Source of the DNA: a virus
Virus record (IMG/VR): IMGVR_UViG_3300025151_002957
Coordinates: 1-20,438 of that record
DNA length: 20,438 bases
Reading direction: 5' to 3' (one strand)
The translations under genes were made by a program, and so were the position numbers. Each line of letters begins with the position of its first letter. Position 1 is the first letter of the stretch. The notes beneath the pieces were generated by a model, which worked only from the letters and a program-made list of their open reading frames with translations, made no database searches and had not been told where the DNA came from. Below are positions 2-20,438 of the stretch, piece by piece.

Positions 2-3000
2 ACAGTTTCTAGTGGAGCTGTAAGTTTAGCAACAACATCAACTGCTGCAGAATTAAATATATTAGATGGTGCTACAGTAACTACTGCAGAACTTAATATA
101 CTTGATGGAGTTACATCAACTGCTGCAGAACTTAATTTACTTGATGGTGTTACAAGTACTACAGCCGAGTTAAATATTTTAGATGGTGTTACTTCTACTG
201 CTGCTGAGTTAAATATACTAGATGGTGTTACAAGCACCACAGCAGAATTAAATATTCTTGATGGTGTTACAGCTAGTGCAACAGATATAAATCTTATAGA
301 TGGAATAACAAACGGAACAGTAATAGCAAGTAAAGCTATTATAACAGATGCAAACAAAGATATTACTGGTGGTAGAAATATTACTATTAGTGGTGAGTTA
401 GATGCAGGGTCACTTGACATATCAGGTGATGCAGATATTGATGGAACATTAGAAGCTGATGCAATTACTATTAATGGAGTTACACTAGCAGAAACAATTA
501 GTGATACTGTAGGAGCTATGGTAACTTCTAATACAGAAACAGGAGTTACAGTAACTTATGATGATAGTGATAATACATTAGACTTTGTTATTGGAACACT
601 AAATCAAAATACAACAGGTAATGCAGCTACAGCTACAGCATTAGAAACAGCTAGAACTATTCATGGTGTTTCATTTGATGGTACAGCTAATATAGATTTA
701 TCAGAAGTTATTCAAGATACTGTAGGAGCTATGGTATCTAGTAATACTGAAAGTGGTATTACAGTTACATATGAAGATAGTGATGGAACATTAGATTTTG
801 CAATCGGTACGCTTAATCAAGATACTACAGGTACAGCAGCTACAGTTACAACAGCAGCACAACCAAATATTACAAGTCTTGGAACTCTTACAACACTTAC
901 AGTAGATGATATAACTATAAATGGTTCTACTATTTCTGATAGTGGTGATTTAACACTAGATGTTGGTGGAGACATAATTCTTGATGCCGATGGCTCAACT
1001 ATAACTATGAAAGATGGTGGTACTACTAGAATTACATTTAATTTAGATTCTACACCAGATTTAGTTATGGCAGGTGGTAACGCCAGTATAACTGCATCTA
1101 CATCTGACGCAGATTTTACTATTATAGGTAATGATGGTGGAAGCGATATTAATGCCCTTACCTTTGATATGTCAGAGGGTGGTAATGCTACTTTTGTTGG
1201 TCAAATTATTACAAGCACAGCAGGTAGTAACAATGTAAGATTAGGTGATGGTGCTGGTGCTGCATTAGCAAGTGGTGGAACTAGAAATGTTGTTATAGGC
1301 TCTAATGCTGGTGCTGCTCTAACAACTGGTGATTATAATGTAGCTGTTGGATATAATGCTCTTGATGCAGAAGATACAGGAAGTAGGTCAACAGCTGTAG
1401 GTTATTATGCTTTATCTACACAAAATAATGATGCAGCTAACCATAATACAGCAGTAGGTTTTACTGCGTTAGAAGCAACAACAGAAGGTCAACATAATAC
1501 CTCTGTAGGTTCAAATTCTTTAAACGCAAACACTACAGGAGATAATAACACAGCTTTAGGTTCTGGTGCTTTAACAGCAAATACTACAGCTAATTCTAAT
1601 ATTGCTATAGGAGTAGATGCTTTAAATGACAATACTACTGGTGATTTAAATGTAGCAGTAGGAACTTATGCACTAGACACAAACACAACAGCATCAAGAA
1701 ATACAGCTATCGGTTATGCTGCTATGGATGCTAATACAGAAGGTGCATTTAATACAGCAGTTGGAGCTAATGCTTTAGATGCTAATACTACTGCAAGTAA
1801 TAATGTAGCGATTGGTTATAATACTTTGACTACAAATAGTACTGGTGATGAAAATGTAGCTGTAGGTTCATTAGGATTACAAGCAAATACAACTGGTAGT
1901 GGTAATGTTGGTATTGGTCGTGAAGCTTTATTAGCTAATACAACTGGAGCTGAAAACACAGCAGTAGGTAAATTAGCTTTGTCTGCGAATACTACAGCTG
2001 CTGGTAATACAGCTGTTGGACATGATGCTTTGCGAAGCACAACAACAGGTGCTACTAATACAGCTGTTGGTTATGATGCTTTAAGAAGTAACACTACAGG
2101 AGCTAATAATGTTGCTATAGGAATTAATGCTCTAACTGGTAATGACACAGGTTCTTATCAAGTAGCTATAGGTAGAAATGCTTTACAAGTTGCTGATGGT
2201 GTAGATAAAAATATAGCTATAGGATATAACACATTAGCAGCTGTAACATCAGGTAATAACAACATTGCCATGGGTTATGTTGCTGGTGATGCAATAACTA
2301 CTGGTGCTGCTAATACTTGCATAGGCTCAAGTGCTGGTACTGCAATAACTACAGCTTCTAATAACACAATAGTAGGTTCTGATGCAGGAAAAAATGCAAC
2401 AACAGGATTAGTAGATAGTGTTCTTGTAGGTTTTCAAGCAGGTAGTTCTGGTACTATGGGTAGCTATACTGTAGGTGTAGGGTATAACTCATTATATAAC
2501 AACACGGGCAATAACAATACTGGGTGTGGTTACAACACTTTGTTTGCTAACACAAGTGGTGCTAATAATACAGCAGTTGGTTTACAAGCATTAGATGCAA
2601 ATACTACAGGTGGTAATAACACAGCTATAGGTCTTAATGCTATGACTTCTGCAACAACAGGTAATTATAATACTATTGTAGGTTCTGCTTCTGCAATTAA
2701 TCAAACTACAGCTAGTAATAATACAGTAGTTGGTTATCAAGCTGGTAGTAACATTACTATTAAAAGTGGTAGTATGCTTTTTGGTTATGAAGCTAATACA
2801 AGTTCTAATAGTGCATCAGAATTAGTTATAGGTAATTCAGTTGTAGGTAAAGGTGATAATACAGGTCTTATCTATCCTCCCGGTGGTGGTGGTGTTCACA
2901 ATGCTAATAATACAACTACTTGGGCAACAACTTGTGATAGAAGAATTAAAAAGAATATAAAAGATAATAATACTGGTCTTGATGTTATAAATAAAATACA

Positions 3001-3325
3001 AGTTAAAAACTTTGAATACAGAACTGAAGATGAAATAGTTGATTTTGAAAATACAGCTTCAGCAGTTGTAAAAAAAGAAGGAATACAACTTGGAGTCATA
3101 GCACAAGAAATAGAAACAATTTTACCGAATATGGTTAAAACAGAATCAACAGGAGTAAAAACTGTAGATTCAGATAACTTAACTTGGTACTTAATAAATG
3201 CAGTAAAAGAACTTTCTGCACAAGTAGAAGAACTTAAAAAAGATTCCCACAAACCAAAAGGTTTAAAGGATATGGATGGTTATGATGAACTCATGGCTGA
3301 AATTAAAAACTTAAAAGGAGAATAA
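2..3325 (+). CDS. Phage tail fibre/spike protein, 5'-truncated, with YadA-like repeats and C-terminal S74 autoprocessing chaperone
   Basis: The open frame runs without a stop from base 2 to the TAA at 3323-3325 (1107 residues visible), so the true start lies upstream of the window; the ATG at 518 is internal. From N to C the product shows: seven 13-residue repeats ending in LDGVT-type motifs; a duplicated 41-residue module; the fibre motif ARTIHGVSFDGTANI; about 30 repeats of a 17-residue NTAVG..AL..NTTG unit like the YadA/Hep-Hag head, which forms trimeric left-handed beta-rolls; and a Peptidase_S74 domain from about base 2927, with CDRRIKKNI, GVIAQEI and a terminal coiled coil (LINAVKELSAQVEELKK). 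In the family, S74 is an intramolecular chaperone that trimerises the fibre and then cuts itself off. The usual catalytic Ser is Cys here (2933-2935), with Lys at +5 present. Role inferred: receptor recognition at the virion surface. Confidence 0.93.
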   Translation, partial: TVSSGAVSLATTSTAAELNILDGATVTTAELNILDGVTSTAAELNLLDGVTSTTAELNILDGVTSTAAELNILDGVTSTTAELNILDGVTASATDINLIDGITNGTVIASKAIITDANKDITGGRNITISGELDAGSLDISGDADIDGTLEADAITINGVTLAETISDTVGAMVTSNTETGVTVTYDDSDNTLDFVIGTLNQNTTGNAATATALETARTIHGVSFDGTANIDLSEVIQDTVGAMVSSNTESGITVTYEDSDGTLDFAIGTLNQDTTGTAATVTTAAQPNITSLGTLTTLTVDDITINGSTISDSGDLTLDVGGDIILDADGSTITMKDGGTTRITFNLDSTPDLVMAGGNASITASTSDADFTIIGNDGGSDINALTFDMSEGGNATFVGQIITSTAGSNNVRLGDGAGAALASGGTRNVVIGSNAGAALTTGDYNVAVGYNALDAEDTGSRSTAVGYYALSTQNNDAANHNTAVGFTALEATTEGQHNTSVGSNSLNANTTGDNNTALGSGALTANTTANSNIAIGVDALNDNTTGDLNVAVGTYALDTNTTASRNTAIGYAAMDANTEGAFNTAVGANALDANTTASNNVAIGYNTLTTNSTGDENVAVGSLGLQANTTGSGNVGIGREALLANTTGAENTAVGKLALSANTTAAGNTAVGHDALRSTTTGATNTAVGYDALRSNTTGANNVAIGINALTGNDTGSYQVAIGRNALQVADGVDKNIAIGYNTLAAVTSGNNNIAMGYVAGDAITTGAANTCIGSSAGTAITTASNNTIVGSDAGKNATTGLVDSVLVGFQAGSSGTMGSYTVGVGYNSLYNNTGNNNTGCGYNTLFANTSGANNTAVGLQALDANTTGGNNTAIGLNAMTSATTGNYNTIVGSASAINQTTASNNTVVGYQAGSNITIKSGSMLFGYEANTSSNSASELVIGNSVVGKGDNTGLIYPPGGGGVHNANNTTTWATTCDRRIKKNIKDNNTGLDVINKIQVKNFEYRTEDEIVDFENTASAVVKKEGIQLGVIAQEIETILPNMVKTESTGVKTVDSDNLTWYLINAVKELSAQVEELKKDSHKPKGLKDMDGYDELMAEIKNLKGE
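38..310 (+). repeat. Seven tandem 39-bp repeats in the tail-fibre gene
   Basis: Units start at 38, 77, 116, 155, 194, 233 and 272. Each encodes 13 residues of the form STAAELNILDGVT; the last is degenerate (ASATDINLIDGIT). The third codon positions differ between copies (for example aca/aca, tct/act), while the protein repeat is kept, which indicates selection on the protein. They probably form repeated shaft elements of the fibre. Confidence 0.9.
497..832 (+). repeat. Duplicated 41-residue fibre module
   Basis: Two copies, 497-619 and 710-832, each begin I-[SQ]-DTVGAMV and end TLNQ[ND]TTG. They differ at only a few residues. They are separated by a 30-residue linker that carries the ARTIHGVSFDGTANI motif often seen in phage fibres. 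Confidence 0.85.
1283..2840 (+). repeat. About 30 tandem 51-bp YadA/Hep-Hag-like repeats
   Basis: A 17-residue unit with a core [TV]A[VI]G and a following AL..NTTG recurs from about 1283 to 2840. Spacing is mostly an exact 17 codons, with a few longer units. Such units build trimeric beta-rolls in bacterial adhesins (YadA head). The copies are diverged at the nucleotide level, so this is an old protein repeat rather than a recent DNA expansion. Confidence 0.88.
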
Positions 3326-12600: not shown

Positions 12601-15600
12601 TGGTAGATTTATAGCACCTGCATTAGAGTATGAACAAGAAAAAATAAAAGGATTACCTGATTATGAGAAAGGACTACCTGATTATGATAGAGAACAAAAA
12701 AATATTGGTGGTCAAATAAGTAGACTTTTAAGTAAAAAAGTTCCAAATATTTTTTCTAAAGTTGGCGATGATATGGGTGGTGGAACTAGTAAACCTATTA
12801 AAGATATTGTAGATAAAGAAGAAGAAGATATGCTAAAAGCTTTGTATATGGATGACTATGGTAACTATTCTCCTACTATTAAAACTTTAGTACTAGATGC
12901 TCCTGATGATATAACTGGTCCTAAATTAAGTAAATGGTTAAAAAAACAAAGAAGCTCTAAAGGTATTAAACAAAAAGAATTAGATTATTTAGAAGTAGAA
13001 AATTATATAAAAGAAACTCCTTATGCTACAGGAAGAGAAGTAGGAGAAGCATTATCACCACAAAGATTAAAAATTATCTCTAATATAAGAAAACAAAGCT
13101 TTGACCCAGATGACATCCGAACAGAATCCTATACGGGTGGTATAGATTCACCAGAAGCTAATCAAAGATTTTTAGAACGAATAGAAGAAGATATAAAATT
13201 TTCTACTAAAGTTATTGAGTATGATGAATTAACAGATACTTTAAGTGATAAAATAAATAAAGAAGATATGAAATTTTATGAATCAGCAGAAAAAGCTTTA
13301 CGAAGTCGTATACCAAGTTTTCTTAAAGAAAAAAATAGAATACCAAATGAAATATATGAAAGACACGATGACTTATATTTTCCAAATGACCCTCAAAATA
13401 TAGCAGGAAGACAGGATAAAAGTATATATGATATGAATCCTTTTGAAAGAATAGATTTTACAATTAGCAAGACTAATCCAATGAGAACGGACCATATGTA
13501 CCCCGGTAAAGATATAGAAGGATTTATTTTTGGTAATACTGAAGTTGGTTATAAATATTATTTTCCTAAATTAGAAGAAGAAAACATAATAAGTAAAAGT
13601 GAAATTTTAGATTTTTTTGATTTATTTAATACTCCTTTTAATCCTACTGAAGCTAAAATACAACTAAAAAGATTTTTAGAAGACCTTAATTTTTTAAAGA
13701 AACCAAGAGAAACTGAACCTATACTTAAAGAGGTAATTGATGAAAATTCTCCGGGTGGAGCTAATTATAGAAACATAATTTTTGGAGTATCAGGTCCTAA
13801 GACAAAACAGCTTAATTATGAAGATATGGACTATATGCATTTTATGGGTAGAACAGAAGCAGAACAAAAACAATTTGGTCATGTTGTTACTAAAGATAGA
13901 AAATTAATAAATCCTGTTAATAAAAATAATAAGCTAACTACTATACATGGTGAAGAAGTACAAAGTGACTATATTACTAATGTATATGATTTGGGATTAA
14001 AGACTGAAAAAAATGTAAAATTAGTTGATGAAATAAATAAGGAGGCTGATTCATTAATTGAAAACTTAAACAAAAAAACAGACATTCTTGAAGAATTAGT
14101 AGAAAATTTAGTAAAAAATAGAAAAGACCCTGCAGCAGAAATATTTGCACAAGACAGTTATGCAAGAAGATATTCTACTCCTAGAAGTCCTTTAAATTAT
14201 ATTTATCTCGACAAGGCAGGAGATGTTGAATTTCGAGATTGGTTAGTTGAATCATTTGGATTTAGTGGTGGCAAATACACAGAATCTGATTTAAAAATAC
14301 TAAATAAATATATAAACAAATATAATAAATTTGTTGAAAATGATAAAAATTTTACTTCACTAGATAAAATAAATGATATTGCAAATAAAAGAGAAGGAAA
14401 AACTAGAAAAATAAATTCTGCTTTACTAGATATTGTCCAAGATAACGAAATAAAGTTTGGTAAAAAACTAGAATTGACAAGTAAGAAAAATGCAAGAGAT
14501 ATGTCTGATACAGGTGCTAGACTTGTTATTGAAGAATACCGAAAAAAAGTAGGTAGTGATGTTGATTTTCCAGCTTATTATAAAGATGCTTTAGATATTT
14601 ATGTACCAACTAGTATAAATGCACCCTTACCTGTTGGTTCAAATACTGTAGCACATGTTACTCCAACAAGAATATTTCAAATAATATCACAAATGAATTA
14701 TATGAAAAAAGAGCTTTATGAAATGATGGCAAAATATGGAGACACCTCTAAACTTGTACCAGAAAATCCTATACAAGATAAAGAAGCTATAAAAAGAGCA
14801 GTAGATAGAGTAATGTTACAAGCTGTAAAAGAAAATAAACAAGCTGTATCTTTTGCTAAATCAGATATTATAAAACAAAGATATCCCGGTCAGGACAATC
14901 AATATTATGAATATATATATGATAAAATAGTTCCAAAACATTTAAAAAAATTAGCTAAAGAATATGATATTAAATTTGCTGAACTTGAAATAGACCCTTA
15001 TGATTTAGATAAATCTGGAAAATTTGAATATTTTGATACTTACGCTAGTGATACAATAAAGGACTCACCTTACAACAAAGAAAATTTATTTAAAACTAAT
15101 GCTTTAATATTTGATGAAAAATTTAAAGACAGAATAACAAAAGAAGGAGTTAAAACTTTTGCTAAAGGTGGATTAGTAACAGGTACATTTGATGTTCCTA
15201 ATACTAAAGAAGACCCTGCAGATAGAAAAGACCCTAATACAGGATTACCTTACTCTGACCAATTAGATAGACTTGGATTATCTCAAGGTGGTCCGTTAAC
15301 TCCAGAAAAACTAATAAGGTTTGGATTATCTGGAACTACTCCATCTTATTTAGCTAAAGATTTAACAGACCCATCTAAAATAAAAGCAGAACAAGATTTA
15401 AAAAATATGGATAAATTATTTCATGGTGCTAAAGATAAAGATTTTGTTACTATAGATAGTATTTTGTTACCAGAATATAATCGTTTATCACAAGACCCTA
15501 GATTTAAAGAGTTAGCAGCAGACACTACATATGAACAAGCCAAAGAAAATATTATAGAAATTTTACTAAATACAACAAAAAAAATAGAAAGCAGTAATAG

Positions 15601-16003
15601 AAATGCACCTAGAGGTTCAAATAAGTTAGGTAGTACTGCATCAGGATTTTATCAATATATAATTACAAGTGTACCTCCTGCTTTCAATAGAGTAGAAAGA
15701 TATTTTACTAGAAAAGAAGCAGAAAAAATATTTGGTAAAGCTTTAGTAAATAACGATACAAGTGTATTAACACAAAACAAACAAGATATGTTATTTTTAG
15801 CTGATATGTTTCAAAGAAACGGAACTGATAAATTTTTAGCTCCAATATTTTTTATGGATGTAACTGATGAGGATAGTTTGAATAAAGCACGACAAGGTGC
15901 ATTTGATTTATTTGGAAAAGAACATCACACTTTGTCTAGTAAAAAGAAAGAGTATAATGAAGAAACTATAAAATTAGCTAAAAAAGAATGGAGAAGAAAA
16001 TAA
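9650..16003 (+). CDS. Giant 2117-residue virion protein with polyvalent-type domain and C-terminal lysozyme-like domain (T7 gp16-like role)
   Basis: An Ala/Gly-rich hydrophobic stretch lies at about residues 115-150, another at 200-217, and helical hydrophobic parts at about 580-605 and 830-930. Around residues 1375-1445, GGANYRNI and LTTIHGEEVQSDY match the conserved core (EE-V/I-QSD) of a domain in large phage polyvalent proteins. The later YDKIVPKHLKKLAKEYDIK fits the same domain's end. After the linker KGGLVTG..DVPNTKEDPADR, the C terminus has E1980-S-S followed by S-T-A-S-G-F-Y-Q-Y (1995-2003), which resembles the catalytic Glu and the G-x-x-Q-F/Y core of transglycosylases and lysozymes. 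In T7 gp16 the transglycosylase is N-terminal; here it is at the opposite end. Likely co-ejected to open the cell wall and conduct DNA (inference). Confidence 0.9.
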   Translation: MKLKFNNQNNFEALPYKYTLDDLENDEQFQIVAERFLTSIGEKSDDVFEYLRDADFNLFSGFKRMSETKNFTEQQKEDYAYLRRTFDGADMGSLKQYVELVKDAGWDMVRDPTMLASVLLTPVTGGTSFAARMTAATAAKAGLKALAKSAAKPSKITAKGSTGYFAAEAGTWSGTQNHFIQQAELNTNMRTFYSNSELAKSIGLGTLTGGVFGGLANKNEFFKQRMERLYTNDGYRKDAGSDAMFKARRFKDRIIGKFLFGSAAHPLKTFAEYSPTARLLGQKFNSEFNKDLTRRSKQRIGYSYAEDIQFRRGNYKEGYELAIAPLYKTGRMSPELGEQVVTLLRGGRVPNASKEVVQTAKNLRKFFDSVRQDAVEVGIDVTNLKNYFPRSWNRDAIQQNPDKFKKMLSRLRTDKNGNKFRIVEVDKVDDVVDGMLTKQNELYSSHSNLLTHGRVFENLDDNLFREFLTNDLHSVTTDYWMNAARAIEHKKHFLGKGKNVKAIPTQEGNVVLFKQTNEEQFIKKFIDPINKELKRYGSNRQLRAKDKREILNIYKSITGQVDYFTSELGQGIYDFTKLANAMAYLPLATVSSLSEAFITLGKAPTKSAIKGMQDAITNGGHIFQRDMGQILKEKHKLTDNEIVKEMNKVFLAVDEAVADLTNRLDGEGLQNETLKRASRGFYRLNMLIPWTKTVQLSAFSTGKDMIMTNLQQLSSGKNLFGKKLTKNSRTRLEEELFDLGVDIKKGLKWHKKFGDDININAINDDFYQNDIIRGAGRFTNSVILQTGREFANVPTYMTNPKWDILYQFLRYPTVFGNTVLRNFARSTIKDTTVNAPKLAAFVAISTNVAKATNYWRSSEAQRRYIDEEDDWRTTLKAYQRVGLLGPTEYLYRGAEGISYGQNPLIAGIGTGGPILGDFIGMALYDRGFTETLARKLPLRGTKNIMDRYLGDTIEGYFDVREPYTPIEQAARNVDKKMGGGLDVVGRFIAPALEYEQEKIKGLPDYEKGLPDYDREQKNIGGQISRLLSKKVPNIFSKVGDDMGGGTSKPIKDIVDKEEEDMLKALYMDDYGNYSPTIKTLVLDAPDDITGPKLSKWLKKQRSSKGIKQKELDYLEVENYIKETPYATGREVGEALSPQRLKIISNIRKQSFDPDDIRTESYTGGIDSPEANQRFLERIEEDIKFSTKVIEYDELTDTLSDKINKEDMKFYESAEKALRSRIPSFLKEKNRIPNEIYERHDDLYFPNDPQNIAGRQDKSIYDMNPFERIDFTISKTNPMRTDHMYPGKDIEGFIFGNTEVGYKYYFPKLEEENIISKSEILDFFDLFNTPFNPTEAKIQLKRFLEDLNFLKKPRETEPILKEVIDENSPGGANYRNIIFGVSGPKTKQLNYEDMDYMHFMGRTEAEQKQFGHVVTKDRKLINPVNKNNKLTTIHGEEVQSDYITNVYDLGLKTEKNVKLVDEINKEADSLIENLNKKTDILEELVENLVKNRKDPAAEIFAQDSYARRYSTPRSPLNYIYLDKAGDVEFRDWLVESFGFSGGKYTESDLKILNKYINKYNKFVENDKNFTSLDKINDIANKREGKTRKINSALLDIVQDNEIKFGKKLELTSKKNARDMSDTGARLVIEEYRKKVGSDVDFPAYYKDALDIYVPTSINAPLPVGSNTVAHVTPTRIFQIISQMNYMKKELYEMMAKYGDTSKLVPENPIQDKEAIKRAVDRVMLQAVKENKQAVSFAKSDIIKQRYPGQDNQYYEYIYDKIVPKHLKKLAKEYDIKFAELEIDPYDLDKSGKFEYFDTYASDTIKDSPYNKENLFKTNALIFDEKFKDRITKEGVKTFAKGGLVTGTFDVPNTKEDPADRKDPNTGLPYSDQLDRLGLSQGGPLTPEKLIRFGLSGTTPSYLAKDLTDPSKIKAEQDLKNMDKLFHGAKDKDFVTIDSILLPEYNRLSQDPRFKELAADTTYEQAKENIIEILLNTTKKIESSNRNAPRGSNKLGSTASGFYQYIITSVPPAFNRVERYFTRKEAEKIFGKALVNNDTSVLTQNKQDMLFLADMFQRNGTDKFLAPIFFMDVTDEDSLNKARQGAFDLFGKEHHTLSSKKKEYNEETIKLAKKEWRRK

Positions 16004-16444
16004 ATGGGTTTTCCATTTGAAATAATAACTATGTTAGCATCAACTGTGCTTGGTGGATTAATGAGTATCTGGGCTGAAAGTAGAAAAGCTAAAATGGAAA
16101 ATGAAAAACTACTTATAACCAGAGGCGAGTTTAATTTAAAAGCAACTAAAGCAGCTAGAAATCATGGATTAAAAGATAAAGGATTTGCTTGGACTAGAAG
16201 AATTATAGCTTTAAGTTCTGTATTTGCTATTGTTGTGTTTCCTAAATTAGTTGCTGTATATTATCCAGAAGTTGCAGTTACTGTTGGTTATACACAATGG
16301 AATCCCGGAGGACTGTTTAGAAGTGGTAGAGAAGTATTTGATTGGATAACCTTTCAAGGTCTTGTAATTACACAATTAGACACCAACTTAGTATCAGCTA
16401 TTATAGGTATGTACTTTGGTGGTAGTTTAGCAAAAGGTAGATAA
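16004..16444 (+). CDS. Three-membrane-segment holin-like protein
   Basis: The 146-residue product starts directly after the giant gene's stop. Hydrophobic segments lie at about 5-24 (FEIITMLASTVLGGLMSIW), 66-87 (RIIALSSVFAIVVFPKLVAV) and 114-140 (ITFQGLVITQLDT, then LVSAIIGMYFGG). A charged amphipathic region lies between the first two. Size and topology match the three-segment phage and gene-transfer-agent holins (GTA_holin_3TM type). It shares one base with the next gene, which is also a membrane protein, and precedes the CsgG/CsgF genes. A holin would permeabilise the inner membrane at lysis; an alternative is an inner-membrane partner of the curli-type pore. Assignment is moderate. Confidence 0.88.
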   Translation: MGFPFEIITMLASTVLGGLMSIWAESRKAKMENEKLLITRGEFNLKATKAARNHGLKDKGFAWTRRIIALSSVFAIVVFPKLVAVYYPEVAVTVGYTQWNPGGLFRSGREVFDWITFQGLVITQLDTNLVSAIIGMYFGGSLAKGR

Positions 16445-16731
16445 TGAACAGCAGTCAATGGATGGATTTATTAGAAACTGTAGGTATTCCTGCAGCTTTT
16501 GCAGTTGCTGCTGGTTGGATGGTTTGGAAATTATTTAATCACTTAATAGCAGATGTGCATAAAAAACTAGACACACAACATGGTATGATAGTTGCGTTAA
16601 TAGATAGAGTAAGACAAATGGATAACGATATGATACGAATAGATACAATGGTAAGAACAGCCATGAAAGTTCCTATAGATGTCGATAAATTAGCGAGGGC
16701 AGATGGAAAAAAAGACCAAAGGAAAGATTGA
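16444..16731 (+). CDS. Small single-membrane-segment coiled-coil protein next to the holin-like gene
   Basis: The start shares one base with the previous stop (TAATG), and AAGG lies at about 16434-16437. The 95-residue product has one hydrophobic segment (about residues 12-31, VGIPAAFAVAAGWMVWKLF) and then a helical charged region (HKKLDTQHGMIVALIDRV, DNDMIRIDTMVRT). Its C-terminal tail is lysine/aspartate rich. The layout suits an antiholin, a holin partner or an inner-membrane spanin component. The ATG of the csgF-like gene lies inside its last 29 bases. I cannot name the family. Confidence 0.85.
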   Translation: MNSSQWMDLLETVGIPAAFAVAAGWMVWKLFNHLIADVHKKLDTQHGMIVALIDRVRQMDNDMIRIDTMVRTAMKVPIDVDKLARADGKKDQRKD

Positions 16732-17230
16732 TAGACTAGAAGATGTGCATCCAATGACACAAATAACTGTGGCATCATTTGTACAAGTAGGAATGTTTGG
16801 ACTTATGTTATTAGCATTTTGGGGTAACTCTAAACTTTTTGCAGATGAAATGGTACATCAATTTAAGAATCCTAGTTTTAGTGGTATAGGTACATCAGCA
16901 CATTATCTTACTATAGAAAACCAAGAGTTTAATAGAAAGATGTCTATTAAAGAAGAAATAAAAGCTTTACAAGACCAGATTAAAAGAGACAAAGAAAATA
17001 CAACACTAGCAAGGTTTATTAGAAATTTAGAATCTAGAATATATGCACAACTATCAAGGCAGTTAGTAGAAAATTTGTTTGGAGAAACAGCAAGTACAGA
17101 GGGTACTTTAACTTTAGAAGGTAACACTATTACATATAGTGTTGAAGATGGAATTATAACTTTGGTGATAACGGACAGTAATGGCGATACGACTACTATA
17201 CAGCTTCCTATTGGCAATTTTAGTTTCTAG
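16703..17230 (+). CDS. csgF: CsgF-like curli pore accessory protein
   Basis: CsgF lines the top of the outer-membrane CsgG pore: its N-terminal peptide enters the barrel and adds a second constriction. Two parts match. Residues 51-61 (VHQFKNPSFSG) correspond to the inserting peptide around FRNPNFGG of E. coli CsgF. The C-terminal half, with helix RFIRNLESRIYAQLSRQL and strands ending DSNGDTTTIQLPI, matches the CsgF helix and final strand (TDRKTGQTSTIQV). Between them is a charged helical stretch (about 78-102). Residues 19-47 form a hydrophobic export segment that could be cut after A47. The start is uncertain. ATG 16703 has GCGAGG upstream and gives a 29-base overlap with the previous gene; ATG 16754 (M18) would avoid the overlap and give a shorter signal. 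The final strand is encoded in the overlap with csgG. Confidence 0.85.
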   Translation: MEKKTKGKIDRLEDVHPMTQITVASFVQVGMFGLMLLAFWGNSKLFADEMVHQFKNPSFSGIGTSAHYLTIENQEFNRKMSIKEEIKALQDQIKRDKENTTLARFIRNLESRIYAQLSRQLVENLFGETASTEGTLTLEGNTITYSVEDGIITLVITDSNGDTTTIQLPIGNFSF

Positions 17231-18035
17231 TTGTGCAGTCTTAAATAAAAACACAGACTTATCACTAACTAGAGATATACAACCTGCTAATATTTTAGAT
17301 TTACAATCAGCTCAATTAGCTGAATTACCTCCTGCTAAAAGAAAACCAGTAATAGCAGTATATAGAGATAGCTTTCAAGATTTAACAGGGCAAAGAAAAA
17401 GTAATAGTAGCTTTGCTTTATTTAGTACAGCAGTCACACAAGCTCCTGAAGCATTACTTATCAGGGCTTTAAAACATGCTGCTAATGGTGAATTTTTTAG
17501 AGTTGTTGAACGAGTAGGTTTAGATAACCTTACTAAAGAACGACAACTAATACGGTCAACTAGAGAGAACTTTGAAGAGGACCAAAAACTTCAACCTTTG
17601 TTATTCGCAGGGTTGTTAATACAAGGTGGAGTTATTAACTACGATACCAATGTTCAATCTGGTGGTATGGGTGCTAGGTACTTAGGAATAGGTACAAGCA
17701 AACAATACCGAGAAGATGTAGTGACTATATCATTGCGATTAGTTTCTGTATCAACAGGAGAAGTGCTAGTAGAAACATTAGTTTCTAAAAGCATTGTCTC
17801 CACAAGTGTTTCTCAGGATGTTTTCCGTTTTATAGAAGCCGGTACTGAACTGGTAGAAATAGAAGGAGGCGTTGCTGAGAACGAGGTGGGTTCTATAGCT
17901 TTGCAAAAGGCAATAGAAACTGGAGTATTTAACTTAATAGAAATAGGAATAGAAAGAGGGTATTGGGAATATGAACAAATTGAAATTAATGAGCCTGATT
18001 GTGATGCTGACTGCATTGACAACATACGGGGCTGA
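17181..18035 (+). CDS. csgG: CsgG-family outer-membrane secretion lipoprotein
   Basis: CsgG forms the nonameric outer-membrane channel that exports curlin subunits. The 284-residue product has a lipoprotein signal with lipobox V-S-S-C18. Family motifs follow in order: IAVYRDSFQDLTGQRK, ALFSTAVTQAPEALLIRAL, VVERVGLDNLTKERQLIR, GGVINYDTNVQSGGMGARYLGIG, LRLVSVSTGEVL and AIETGVFNLIEIGIERGYW. Each matches E. coli CsgG closely. By eye, the constriction residue F56 of E. coli aligns with F81, while Y51 and N55 align with S76 and L80. The C-terminal tail carries C274 and C278. The start is fixed by the signal peptide, which lies wholly within the last 50 bases of csgF. No strong ribosome binding site is visible, so coupling to csgF translation is likely. 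Confidence 0.95.
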   Translation: MAIRLLYSFLLAILVSSCAVLNKNTDLSLTRDIQPANILDLQSAQLAELPPAKRKPVIAVYRDSFQDLTGQRKSNSSFALFSTAVTQAPEALLIRALKHAANGEFFRVVERVGLDNLTKERQLIRSTRENFEEDQKLQPLLFAGLLIQGGVINYDTNVQSGGMGARYLGIGTSKQYREDVVTISLRLVSVSTGEVLVETLVSKSIVSTSVSQDVFRFIEAGTELVEIEGGVAENEVGSIALQKAIETGVFNLIEIGIERGYWEYEQIEINEPDCDADCIDNIRG

Positions 18036-18687
18036 TAACGAAATATATGTTGACCAATCAGGTGCTACTGCTAATATAGATTTAGAACAACTTGGTTCTG
18101 GAAATATAATGGGTGGATTAAATTCTGTTGCAGGAACTTTAACTGCTTTAGATTTAGATGGATTAAATTTAACTCTAGATATTAATCAAATTGGAGATAG
18201 TAATAAATTTCTTGGAGATATACTAGGAGATAACATTACAGGTTTCTTTGAATTTGATGGAGACAGTAATACATTTACCATACAAGCAGACCCAACAAAT
18301 ACTTATGGTGTTGATAGTTCTAATTTAAATGTAGATGCTACAGGTAGTAGTAATACTTTTACACTAGATTTAGGTACAAGTGCTATGGCTAGTAATACAG
18401 ACTTAGACTGGATTATTAATGGAGATAGTAATACATTTGATTTTGATATAAACTATGATAGTGGTACTTCTTATGTTGATGTTGATGGAGATAGCAACAA
18501 TGTTACCTTTACAGGTAGTGGTTATGCTGGTGGTTATTTTTATTTAGACCAAACCGGTAATTCTAGAACTTTCAATATACAACAACTAAGTACATTAGAC
18601 AATGATTGGCTCAAGATACTTTCTACTGGCAATAATGGTACTGTCTGTGTTATCCAAAACGATGGTGGCACAACAGTCGGATGCTAG
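17971..18687 (+). CDS. Secreted curlin-like repeat protein, candidate cargo of the CsgG pore
   Basis: The 238-residue product has a signal peptide (MNKLKLMSLIVMLTALTTYG) likely cut after residue 20 or 21. The mature part is built from about seven strand-turn-strand units of the form phi-x-phi-x-x-x-G-x-[SG]-N-x-phi-x-phi, for example DINQIGDSNKF, FEFDGDSNTFTI, VDATGSSNTFTL, IINGDSNTFDF, VDVDGDSNNVTF and YLDQTGNSRTF. This follows the curlin pattern (S-x5-Q-x-G-x-G-N-x-A-x3-Q), but most of the glutamines are replaced by aspartate. Position directly after csgG supports secretion through that pore. The last unit carries the only two cysteines (C226, C238). The start overlaps csgG by 65 bases, with GAGGG at about 17956-17960. 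It may be an amyloid subunit, a nucleator or a non-amyloid beta-solenoid. Confidence 0.85.
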   Translation: MNKLKLMSLIVMLTALTTYGADNEIYVDQSGATANIDLEQLGSGNIMGGLNSVAGTLTALDLDGLNLTLDINQIGDSNKFLGDILGDNITGFFEFDGDSNTFTIQADPTNTYGVDSSNLNVDATGSSNTFTLDLGTSAMASNTDLDWIINGDSNTFDFDINYDSGTSYVDVDGDSNNVTFTGSGYAGGYFYLDQTGNSRTFNIQQLSTLDNDWLKILSTGNNGTVCVIQNDGGTTVGC

Positions 18688-19708
18688 TATTGGAAGCGTA
18701 ACAGAACTTAAAGGTACAGGCAGAGTTGTAAGGGATATACCTTATGATGCTGCCTTATCTTTTAGTATAGAAAGTTATGACAATGTCGAAACTTCTAATG
18801 GTAGGATAGGAATAACATTTTTAAACGACACTAGAGTTAGACTAACAGAACATTCACAATTAGTTATAGATGAATTTATCTATGACCCTGACCCATCTAA
18901 ATCTAAGATGGCTCTAGAATTTGCTAGTGGAACTGCAAGGTTTATTACTGGCAAGTTAAATAATATAAACAAAGAGAACATAGCTATCTCAACTCCGAGT
19001 GCTAATGTTTCAATTCGTGGTACAGATTTTACAATCACAGTCAATGAGATTGGAGAGTCTTTAATTATATTATTACCAAAAGCAGATGGTACTCCTAGTG
19101 GAGAAATATTAGTAGCAACAGCTATGGGAGAAGTAGTGCTTAACCAACCCTATCAAGCTACTACAGTTTCTATGTTTGAAACCGAACCTACTAAACCAGT
19201 TATATTAGATATTACTTTAGAGTTAATAGATAATATGTTAATTGTTAATCCACCACAGGAGAATGTAGATGTACAGGGAGAAGATGGAGGTAGCGTTTCT
19301 AATATTCTTGATGCTGACTTCCTTGACTTTGATGATTTAGAAGTAGACTATCTTGCAGAAGATGAGTTAGAGTTTACTGAACTTGATATAAATTATTTAG
19401 ATGTAAACTTTCTTGAAGACTTGTTAGACATTATACAAGATGTAAACGAACTTGACCAGACTGAAACAATATTAAAAGCTGACCTAGATTTAAAAGGAAC
19501 AGCTATGGGTTTTGATTCTAACACACAAATTAATACTTTTGCTACAGATAATATCATAACTTTCTTACGAACATTAGAAGATACCATAAGATTAGATTTA
19601 GATAAGACAGGCTCTTATACTGTTATCCTTGTACAAAATGGAAAGAGTACACAAATTATAGTAAATGGTGGAAGTTCTTCAACAATCACTATAAAACAGG
19701 GCGATTAG
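18602..19708 (+). CDS. Secreted FecR-domain protein with acidic pentameric leucine repeat
   Basis: The 368-residue product begins with a signal peptide (residues 1 to about 23 or 28). A FecR-type domain follows at about 30-145: GSVTELKGTGRVVRD, a hydrophobic strand with VETSNGRIGITFLNDTRVRL, and STPSANVSIRGTDFTI, all typical of stand-alone FecR domains. It lacks the cytoplasmic anti-sigma part and transmembrane anchor of FecR regulators. Residues 236-271 carry leucine at every fifth position, with D/E/N between, resembling an acidic pentapeptide repeat. The C terminus (SYTVILVQNGKSTQIIV..TITIKQ) is beta-rich. It overlaps the curlin-like gene by 86 bases and has no clear ribosome binding site. 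Being last in the cassette, it may be a second secreted cargo, a surface anchor or a periplasmic partner. Confidence 0.9.
   Translation: MIGSRYFLLAIMVLSVLSKTMVAQQSDASIGSVTELKGTGRVVRDIPYDAALSFSIESYDNVETSNGRIGITFLNDTRVRLTEHSQLVIDEFIYDPDPSKSKMALEFASGTARFITGKLNNINKENIAISTPSANVSIRGTDFTITVNEIGESLIILLPKADGTPSGEILVATAMGEVVLNQPYQATTVSMFETEPTKPVILDITLELIDNMLIVNPPQENVDVQGEDGGSVSNILDADFLDFDDLEVDYLAEDELEFTELDINYLDVNFLEDLLDIIQDVNELDQTETILKADLDLKGTAMGFDSNTQINTFATDNIITFLRTLEDTIRLDLDKTGSYTVILVQNGKSTQIIVNGGSSSTITIKQGD
19310..19414 (+). repeat. Pentameric acidic leucine repeat within the FecR-domain protein
   Basis: Leucines at residues 236, 241, 246, 251, 256, 261, 266 and 271 are spaced exactly five apart. 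The third position of each unit is mostly D or N, preceded by A, V, I or F, as in pentapeptide repeats (A-[DN]-L-x-x), which form a right-handed quadrilateral beta-helix. The aromatic or acidic residue at the usual central leucine position and the very high acidity are atypical. Confidence 0.6.
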
Positions 19709-19831
19709 AGAAAATTGACCTCACCAGATGCTCTGTATTGCATTTTCTGACCATACCTAATACGATAAGTATCGGAAGACCAATTATTCAACACAGAGCT
19801 TCTCCGTGCCTCTGAGAGGATTTAGCTATTT
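19709..19831. other. Convergent intergenic region, structured, no gene
   Basis: This is the only non-coding gap of note between the plus-strand unit and hsp20 on the other strand. It is visibly richer in G and C than the flanking genes. A 7-bp closing stem pairs 19730-19736 (GCTCTGT) with 19793-19799 (ACAGAGC). Inside it, ATTG 19737-19740 can pair with CAAT 19781-19784, and CGAT 19763-19766 with ATCG 19771-19774. I see no tRNA, no credible open frame longer than 10 codons and no att-like duplication. It may encode a small RNA or serve only for termination. Confidence 0.5.
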
Positions 19832-19833
19832 TT
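19799..19833 (+). terminator. Candidate intrinsic terminator of the plus-strand late unit
   Basis: A 6-bp stem pairs CTTCTC (19799-19804) with GAGAGG (19814-19819), with one G-T pair and a nine-base loop; CCTC/GAGG inside the same stretch is an alternative. It is followed by ATTTAGCTATTTTT, a U-rich but interrupted tail on the plus-strand transcript. The position, about 90 bases past the last plus-strand gene and at the end of the convergent hsp20, suits a terminator. The spacing to the U run is longer than usual, so confidence is limited. Confidence 0.4.
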
Positions 19834-20266
19834 AACCAGAAATCTTAATCTTTTTTGGTTTTTCGCTGTCTGGTATGTTTTTTTCTAGTATAATTTGTAG
19901 AATACCATCAGACATTGTAGCTTTTTTAACTTCCACATGTTCTGCAAGAGCAAACGATTTGTAAAACTCTTTAGTAGAAATACCCTTGTGAAGAAATTCT
20001 GCTCTCTGTATTCCTGTTTTGTCTTCATGACACACAGAAACTGTCAAAGTATTATCATCTAATTCAATATCAACATCAGATTTTTTAAATCCTGCTATTG
20101 CTATTCTAATAATATACTTATCATCAGTATCGCTGATTTCTTCCTTAAGAATATCATAAGGTGGATAGTTTGATGAAGGTATTGATGCTCTTTGTAATGT
20201 ACTAAAGATATCATCAAACCCTACCGAGAACGGGCTGAACTGCCCAAATGCTTTTATACTTGTCAT
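19832..20266 (-). CDS. Hsp20/IbpA-type small heat-shock protein
   Basis: Small heat-shock proteins are ATP-independent holdases that keep unfolding proteins soluble. The 144-residue product starts at the ATG at 20266-20264, fixed by AAAGGAG at 20272-20278 five bases upstream; a longer frame to 20314 has no such site. Family features in order are GFDDIF, YPPYDI, the alpha-crystallin domain from about 38 to 130 with YIIRIAIAGFKKSDVDIEL, FLHKGISTKEFYKSFALAEHVEV, DGILQIILEKNIP, and a C-terminal I-K-I motif. The match to E. coli IbpA (YPPYN, AVAGF, YLYQGI, LERVIP, KKPRRIEI) is close. Phages of marine bacteria often carry hsp20. It is transcribed opposite to the late unit from its own promoter, so early or stress expression by host polymerase is likely. 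Confidence 0.95.
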   Translation of the reverse strand: MTSIKAFGQFSPFSVGFDDIFSTLQRASIPSSNYPPYDILKEEISDTDDKYIIRIAIAGFKKSDVDIELDDNTLTVSVCHEDKTGIQRAEFLHKGISTKEFYKSFALAEHVEVKKATMSDGILQIILEKNIPDSEKPKKIKISG

Positions 20267-20269
20267 ATT

Positions 20270-20290
20270 AACTCCTTTGTAAAGCAAGTT
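20270..20290 (-). promoter_or_regulatory. Candidate RNA thermometer hairpin masking the hsp20 ribosome binding site
   Basis: In the minus-strand leader, AACTTGCTT (20290-20282) can pair with AAGGAGTT (20277-20270) across the loop TACA. This gives AACT/AGTT, a T-G pair with a bulged G, and CTT/AAG. The 3' arm holds the core AAGGAG of the Shine-Dalgarno site, so the folded form hides it. A second hairpin lies just upstream (20294-20316, GAGTG-T-GC with GCACTC). Weak, bulged stems over the site in hsp20 leaders are the hallmark of ROSE and related thermometers. The fold was judged by eye without energy calculation. Confidence 0.45.
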
Positions 20291-20323
20291 AGTGAGTGCC
20301 GACCTTTCGCACACTCTTCTTAT

Positions 20324-20351
20324 ATTATAGTGATTATTCTAAATTTGTCAA
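20324..20351 (-). promoter_or_regulatory. Consensus sigma70-type promoter for hsp20
   Basis: On the minus strand, TTGACA (20351-20346) and TATAAT (20329-20324) are both perfect and separated by 16 bases. Transcription would start near 20317, leaving a leader of about 50 bases. The -35 box lies within the end of the upstream minus-strand gene. The perfect match suggests use by the host housekeeping polymerase. Confidence 0.8.
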
Positions 20352-20438
20352 GTCTATTGTATAAATTTTTATAGCTTTTGATTTACCTTTAACTTTAATA
20401 GGTTTTAACTTAACAAGTTTAATATCTGTTTGTAGTGC
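20334..20438 (-). CDS. 3' end of an unidentified minus-strand gene (possible class III nucleotidyl cyclase C terminus)
   Basis: An open frame enters from the right edge and ends at the TAA at 20336-20334, giving 34 C-terminal residues. The end reads LVKLKPIKVKGKSKAIKIYTIDL. The VKGKS-x-x-I-x-[IV]-Y pattern resembles the last strand of class III adenylate/guanylate cyclase domains (LKGKSEPVEVYEL type). With so little sequence this is only a hint; other folds can end this way. The gene is co-directional with hsp20, whose -35 box sits in its last codons. Confidence 0.6.
   Translation of the reverse strand, partial: ALQTDIKLVKLKPIKVKGKSKAIKIYTIDLTNLE

Follow-up and report, generated by a model that had tools for sequence, protein, structure and literature searches.

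Does the leader of a marine phage's small heat-shock gene control translation of that gene, and if so, what opens it? The window (the whole stretch of DNA that was analysed, a 20,438-base IMG/VR virus record) carries hsp20 and its leader near its 3' end, on the minus strand. The gene (19832..20266) encodes a 144-amino-acid alpha-crystallin small heat-shock protein (Pfam HSP20, E = 3e-17). Marine T4-like cyanophages have hsp20 among their core genes (PMC3037559). In open-access journal papers, we found no prior report of phage thermometers, of phage dnaK or groEL genes with ROSE elements, or of the control of cyanophage hsp20. We lean towards the view that the leader is a ROSE-type translational switch, most likely opened by heat and probably also by the loss of a protein reader, most likely Hsp20 itself.

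Two bulged hairpins in the hsp20 leader

The leader follows a sigma-70 promoter, TTGACA-N16-TATAAT (20324..20351, minus strand), which matches the consensus at 12 of 12 positions and is the sole such match in a scan of 15000-20438. In many T4-like relatives, a late promoter of the TATAAAT type takes its place. The Shine-Dalgarno sequence (AGGAG, 20272..20276) and the start codon 5 nt downstream of it (AUG, 20266-20264) are on the minus strand as well.

In the MFE fold, the leader forms two hairpins, both of 23 nt and of the same bulged shape. Hairpin I (GAGUGU[G]CGA-AAGG-UCGGCACUC; 20294..20316, minus strand) has G20310 as its bulge and is a stable 5' hairpin, with a dG of -12.0 at 20 C and -8.5 at 37 C. 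Hairpin II, the ROSE hairpin (UAACUU[G]CUU-UACA-AAGGAGUUA; 20269..20291, minus strand), pairs the entire Shine-Dalgarno sequence with CUUGCUU and leaves G20285 bulged. CUUGCUU over AAGGAG (20288-20272) contains the U(U/C)GCU anti-Shine-Dalgarno motif of the short ROSE_3 type, and the location, in the leader of a small heat-shock gene (Pfam HSP20), is that of a short ROSE-like thermometer. An earlier note on this DNA had placed the hairpins at 20294-20316 and 20270-20290, with the whole ribosome binding site paired in the second, and the fold bears this out: AGGAG (20276-20272) is fully paired. The note overlooked that hairpin I also has a bulged module, that the element also heads phage dnaK and groES genes, and that the bulged bases switch in concert (see below). 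We rejected a FourU thermometer, as four consecutive U against AGGA are absent and the opposing strand is CUU[G]CUU.

Taken alone, the fold energy of the window leader is unexceptional (z = -1.1; 31 of 200 shuffles fold equally well). If the Shine-Dalgarno sequence and AUG are kept fixed, then 39 of 500 shuffles sequester the Shine-Dalgarno sequence equally at 20 C. These weak single-sequence statistics are what speaks for a chance fold of an AT-rich leader, and they are too weak for us to rest our claim on them. Comparative tests refute this explanation, to which we give practically no credence: the motif counts, the counts of hairpin I, the covariation, and the results of a covariance model on whole genomes all stand against it.

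To score the motif, we gathered the hsp20 leaders of relatives from IMG/VR and from cultured phages and looked for T[TC]GCT...AGGA upstream of the start codon. (A nucleotide search of cultured phages with the window sequence gave no match.) The motif was present in 83 of 97 distinct phage hsp20 leaders, as compared to 2 of 478 control leaders from the same contigs. (The window's own hsp20 had been re-collected among the controls and was excluded.) One of the two controls with the motif is a small ORF that heads an hsp20 operon. Four operons (L067, L084, L090/L092, and L095) lack the motif at hsp20 and have the element before the first ORF instead. The motif is truly missing in a divergent Hsp20 subfamily (L009-L013) and in Vibrio phage L114. 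The leaders of L009-L013 are without hairpin II; some of them retain a hairpin-I-like GCC-GAAA-GG stem and have a GUGCUCAAA.CGAGGCUU hairpin in common.

Bulged hairpin I was present in 66 of 69 leaders, and hairpin I with at least 6 further pairs was found in 60 of the 69, versus 4 of 462 controls. SAR11 and other marine Alphaproteobacteria have the same leader before their own hsp20 genes (79 of 80 loci; the 80th is cut off).

The earlier note had proposed to check covariation of both arms in related phage hsp20 leaders, and this covariation is strong in both hairpins. In the model-fitted alignment, 94.9% of cells are paired and both bulged positions are nearly invariant. There are 272 cells with double changes, versus 77.8 +/- 10.5 in shuffles, and this count and the motif counts together exclude chance. 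The covariation score was 0.542 versus 0.168 and was reached by 0 of 500 shuffles, so pairing is maintained by compensatory changes. In hairpin II, pair b, which contains a base of the Shine-Dalgarno sequence, is formed in 68 of 69 leaders (at most 64 after permuting the 3' arms among leaders), and pair c is formed in 39 (at most 32 after the same permutation). All 66 leaders form the outer pairs 1-3 of hairpin I, and every Watson-Crick type is represented (permuted means of about 29-40), but the register of hairpin I was picked by pairing, so its counts are biased upward. A MAFFT alignment of all leaders was discarded because the variable loop length led to misalignment of the 3' arm.

The covariance model (R2) was built from nine other phages, none of them in the window's clade. 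(R2 replaced an earlier model, R1, whose hairpin II was shifted by one base.) In the 20-kb window, R2 gave three matches, of which the whole element (20263..20317, minus strand; 21.6 bits, E = 0.0006) was the best and the runner-up had E = 0.17. Across 344 kb of fetched loci, 91 of 92 matches were at hsp20 or hsp20-operon leaders. Of 16 whole phage genomes, 15 gave a match at the hsp20 leader, and there was one off-target match. These genomes include T4-like phages of Synechococcus and Prochlorococcus, Pelagibacter phages HTVC008M and HTVC103P, Methylophilales phage Melnitz-1, and Sinorhizobium phage Phosso.

Relation to known ROSE elements and computed melting

Searching the window against Rfam gave nothing at gathering or permissive thresholds, up to E = 10. 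The window thus stays below the gathering cut-off of ROSE_3 (RF02523), and such cut-offs mirror the seed alignment, not function. ROSE_3 does match phage locus L015 over its full length (34.1 bits versus a cut-off of 43; E = 8e-6 in a 161-base search), and several further phage loci match below the 43-bit cut-off; the scanned phage loci reach at most about 34 bits. In the other direction, R2 matches the Pseudomonas-type ROSE_3 leader L022 (24 bits). L022 comes from a record named Pseudomonas phage Y7 and exceeds the ROSE_3 cut-off itself; it may be host DNA. R2 also matches Salmonella ibpB over its full length (16.9 bits) and ibpA at hairpin II only (13.6 bits).

The closest known relative is the Pseudomonas ibpA element (ROSE_3), which also has two hairpins, U(U/C)GCU with a bulged G opposite the Shine-Dalgarno sequence in hairpin II, a bulged G in hairpin I as well (in the Rfam consensus), and a small heat-shock gene downstream. 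Unlike ROSE_3, whose leader is roughly 60 nt, the element described here is about 50 nt, is phage-borne, has AT-rich loops, also heads dnaK and groES, and has a variant with bulged A. The enterobacterial ibpA element (ROSE_2, RF01832) shares the bulged G in a UCGCU hairpin over the Shine-Dalgarno sequence and the small heat-shock gene, but its 5' part differs. ROSE-like and ROSE-G thermometers before ABC transporter genes have an anti-Shine-Dalgarno hairpin with a bulged G too, but they are bacterial and control other genes, and ROSE-G has two opposed bulged Gs. In the phage lambda cIII RNA thermosensor, leader folding controls a phage gene, but by two alternative folds, with the opposite temperature response and no ROSE motif. 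The ROSE-type reading in the earlier note is thus backed by the motif with its bulged G opposite the Shine-Dalgarno sequence, the stable 5' hairpin, the small heat-shock gene, the covariation, and the cross-matches with ROSE_3. Judged by its sequence, the element is a ROSE-type leader, predicted to sequester the Shine-Dalgarno sequence, in a new variant that is phage-wide and unusually widespread.

The short two-hairpin ROSE element of Pseudomonas is an experimentally proven thermometer; no added factor is needed for such elements to regulate translation in E. coli or to control the binding of 30S subunits in vitro (PMC3669281). The window's element could be a pure RNA thermometer of this kind, in which hairpin II melts, no protein reads the RNA, and hairpin I guides folding, as was proposed for other ROSE elements. 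The anatomy is the same, and so, nearly, is the computed melting. For the window leader alone, the probability that the Shine-Dalgarno sequence is unpaired rises from 0.06 at 20 C to 0.16 at 37 C and 0.29 at 50 C, while hairpin II weakens from -5.5 kcal/mol (20 C) to -0.3 kcal/mol (50 C). This gradual melting is close to the curve for L022. On folding at 10-40 C, a check that the earlier note had proposed, the computed opening of the Shine-Dalgarno sequence is modest, which speaks against the switch. The computed melting also varies with the length of coding sequence that is folded: with 15 or more coding bases, competing folds appear. We left those folds out of the argument, and because of them the melting computed here fits a thermometer without proving one. 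From these models, we infer only that translation of hsp20 may be temperature-controlled through the melting of hairpin II. Because a pure thermometer leaves two features of the element unexplained (see the final section), we consider it unlikely, though a serious alternative to a switch that is also read by a protein.

Several records that are filed as phages look bacterial: besides L022, these include L200 and several INPHARED records (Salmonella, Campylobacter, Listeria, Escherichia), for example a Salmonella ibpA/ibpB locus with ROSE_2. Conversely, a contig that is filed as a gammaproteobacterial MAG (L126 / L325) looks phage-like. It contains hsp20 with a ROSE-type leader, a clpS-like gene, and a gene for a LamG-like repeat protein.

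The element before dnaK, groES and other genes

A blind pattern scan of IMG/VR returned mainly hsp20 genes, along with three dnaK genes and one groESL operon. When R2 was run on fetched phage dnaK and groEL loci, it found the element before dnaK, before the hsp20 gene that follows, and before groES. The element is present in every one of the 66 distinct phage dnaK leaders in this set: 47 have a bulged G, 18 have a bulged A, and the last is L400. A strict scan for both hairpins across 2.57 Mb gave 271 elements, which lie before hsp20 (208), dnaK (38), groES (18), small ORFs of the hsp20-operon type (6), groEL (1), and anything else (0). The 2.57 Mb are loci that were picked around chaperone genes, and their flanks carry many other genes. 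Elsewhere in whole contigs, blind matches were before hsp20, a small ORF, and groES. T4-type gp23 capsid genes are present in 4 of the 14 dnaK contigs tested, and some dnaK contigs have other phage genes; for the rest, viral origin is per the IMG/VR classification.

These results bear on whether the hairpins regulate anything. Hairpin I might instead shield the 5' end of a strong late transcript, with the pairing of the Shine-Dalgarno sequence being incidental. Hairpin I does lie at the expected 5' end for either promoter type. But the UYGCU hairpin is nearly restricted to chaperone genes, the covariation extends to a base of the Shine-Dalgarno sequence, and an unpaired G, which a simple stem does not need, is kept, so we consider a non-regulatory role to be very improbable.

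A near-identical candidate switch thus stands before hsp20, dnaK, and groES across hundreds of sequences from phages, which appear to have an RNA-controlled chaperone programme of their own. In phages that have dnaK and groESL as well as hsp20, each gene has its own copy of the element, so one signal would switch on the whole set. Should the element prove functional, viruses would have a stress regulon that acts at the level of RNA and ties chaperone supply during infection to heat or to misfolded protein.

The arrangement of these genes varies. Some phage contigs (L286, L322, L324, and L327-L406) have dnaK and then hsp20, with a separate ROSE-type leader for each; some of these are 245-383 kb and carry T4-type gp23. 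A phage proteostasis cluster in L297 (3843-8111) comprises a clpX-like gene, a ROSE-type leader with a 14-codon ORF, groES, groEL, a second ROSE-type leader, hsp20, and a clpS-like gene. Small ORFs of 70-90 amino acids lie behind a ROSE-type leader in L067, L084, L090, L095, L211, L303, and L488, and in the first four of these hsp20 comes directly after. We considered whether these small proteins are phasins, but the likeness is by eye and there is no Pfam match, so we rejected this annotation.

Concerted bulge identity and a candidate protein reader

Across 368 elements, the bulged base was G in both hairpins of 269 and A in both hairpins of 35, with 2 discordant and doubtful cases; in the rest, hairpin I was below the score threshold. 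(Nine bulge pairs that were scored as A/G, as well as two labels on the DnaK tree, L330 and L335, were regex artefacts and were removed.) Among contigs with at least two elements, 47 are all-G, 18 are all-A, and none are mixed. In the A-bulge contigs (L349, L352, L355, L359, L361, L364, L366-L368, L372-L374, L378, L382, L389, L393-L395, L402, and L447), we found A in both hairpins of dnaK, groES, and hsp20 leaders, as well as Thr in place of Ala in the AxAG motif of Hsp20.

Hairpin I carries no ribosome site, so intramolecular melting does not predict that its bulge would change along with that of hairpin II; a shared reader does. A pure thermometer leaves unexplained both the invariant bulged base of hairpin I, which holds no Shine-Dalgarno sequence, and the joint change from G to A in both hairpins of all the chaperone leaders of a phage. 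The pattern suggests a trans-acting reader, perhaps Hsp20, besides temperature.

Hsp20 is a natural candidate because of the self-repression of IbpA in gamma-proteobacteria: the E. coli protein attaches to its own leader and keeps its own translation down until aggregates titrate it (PMC10474464). Like IbpA, the phage proteins are small heat-shock proteins with an AxAG motif, mostly with Arg at the R93 site, and are encoded next to a ROSE-type leader. In the window's Hsp20, A58 is at the position of IbpA A54, and K99 is at the position of IbpA R93. Arg93 of IbpA was reported to be irreplaceable, even by Lys (PMC10474464). The Lys of the window's protein therefore speaks against Hsp20 as the reader here; most other phage Hsp20s have Arg, and RNA binding by phage Hsp20 is a candidate activity.

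Residue 58, in the AxAG motif, follows the bulge: it is Thr in 19 of 19 Hsp20s from A-type phages and Ala or Ser in 228 of 228 from G-type phages. On the DnaK tree, the A type is in two separated places, both with Thr; it perhaps arose only twice, and with so few origins, its association with residue 58 could simply reflect shared descent. Recombination is also possible.

The reader might be another RNA-binding protein of the phage or host, such as RegA, that recognises the bulged hairpins. Concerted bulge identity requires a reader without naming one, and regA adjoins hsp20 in several cyanophages. But the element also precedes hsp20 in SAR11 bacteria, which calls for a reader common to phage and host, as Hsp20 is, and it is a residue of Hsp20 that follows bulge identity perfectly. 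We therefore think that a reader other than Hsp20 is rather improbable.

In the switch that we favour, with Hsp20 as its reader, hairpin II would keep the Shine-Dalgarno sequence of hsp20 in a weak bulged helix, and little Hsp20 would be made while it is closed. Opening of hairpin II would start translation. By analogy with bacterial ROSE elements, the opening is most likely driven by heat, and probably also by the departure of a protein that keeps the bulged hairpins closed, most likely Hsp20 itself; a build-up of unfolded protein would draw Hsp20 off the hairpins. We infer repression, opening by heat, and the role of Hsp20 from the features of the element and from these precedents, and the signal may be heat, chaperone titration, or both. 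A broader proposal, which we hold only tentatively, is a self-contained phage heat-shock regulon: the leaders of hsp20, dnaK, groESL, and the small ORFs would all be read by Hsp20 (and by temperature), and the reader and its RNAs would have co-evolved, with G changing to A in every leader along with Ala to Thr. The concerted G/G or A/A bulge offers genetics a direct way to ask whether ROSE elements act purely as thermometers or have small heat-shock proteins as readers too.

We also note two other features of the window. Adjoining hsp20 (17181-19708) are genes for a CsgG curli-export protein, a short secreted repeat-like protein, and a FecR-domain protein; the CsgG / FecR-domain neighbourhood is possibly a phage curli-type surface module. 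At the other end (2-3325) is a gene for a tail-fibre-like protein with TAELNILDG and NTAVGYNAL-type repeats, whose C-terminal region resembles an intramolecular chaperone.
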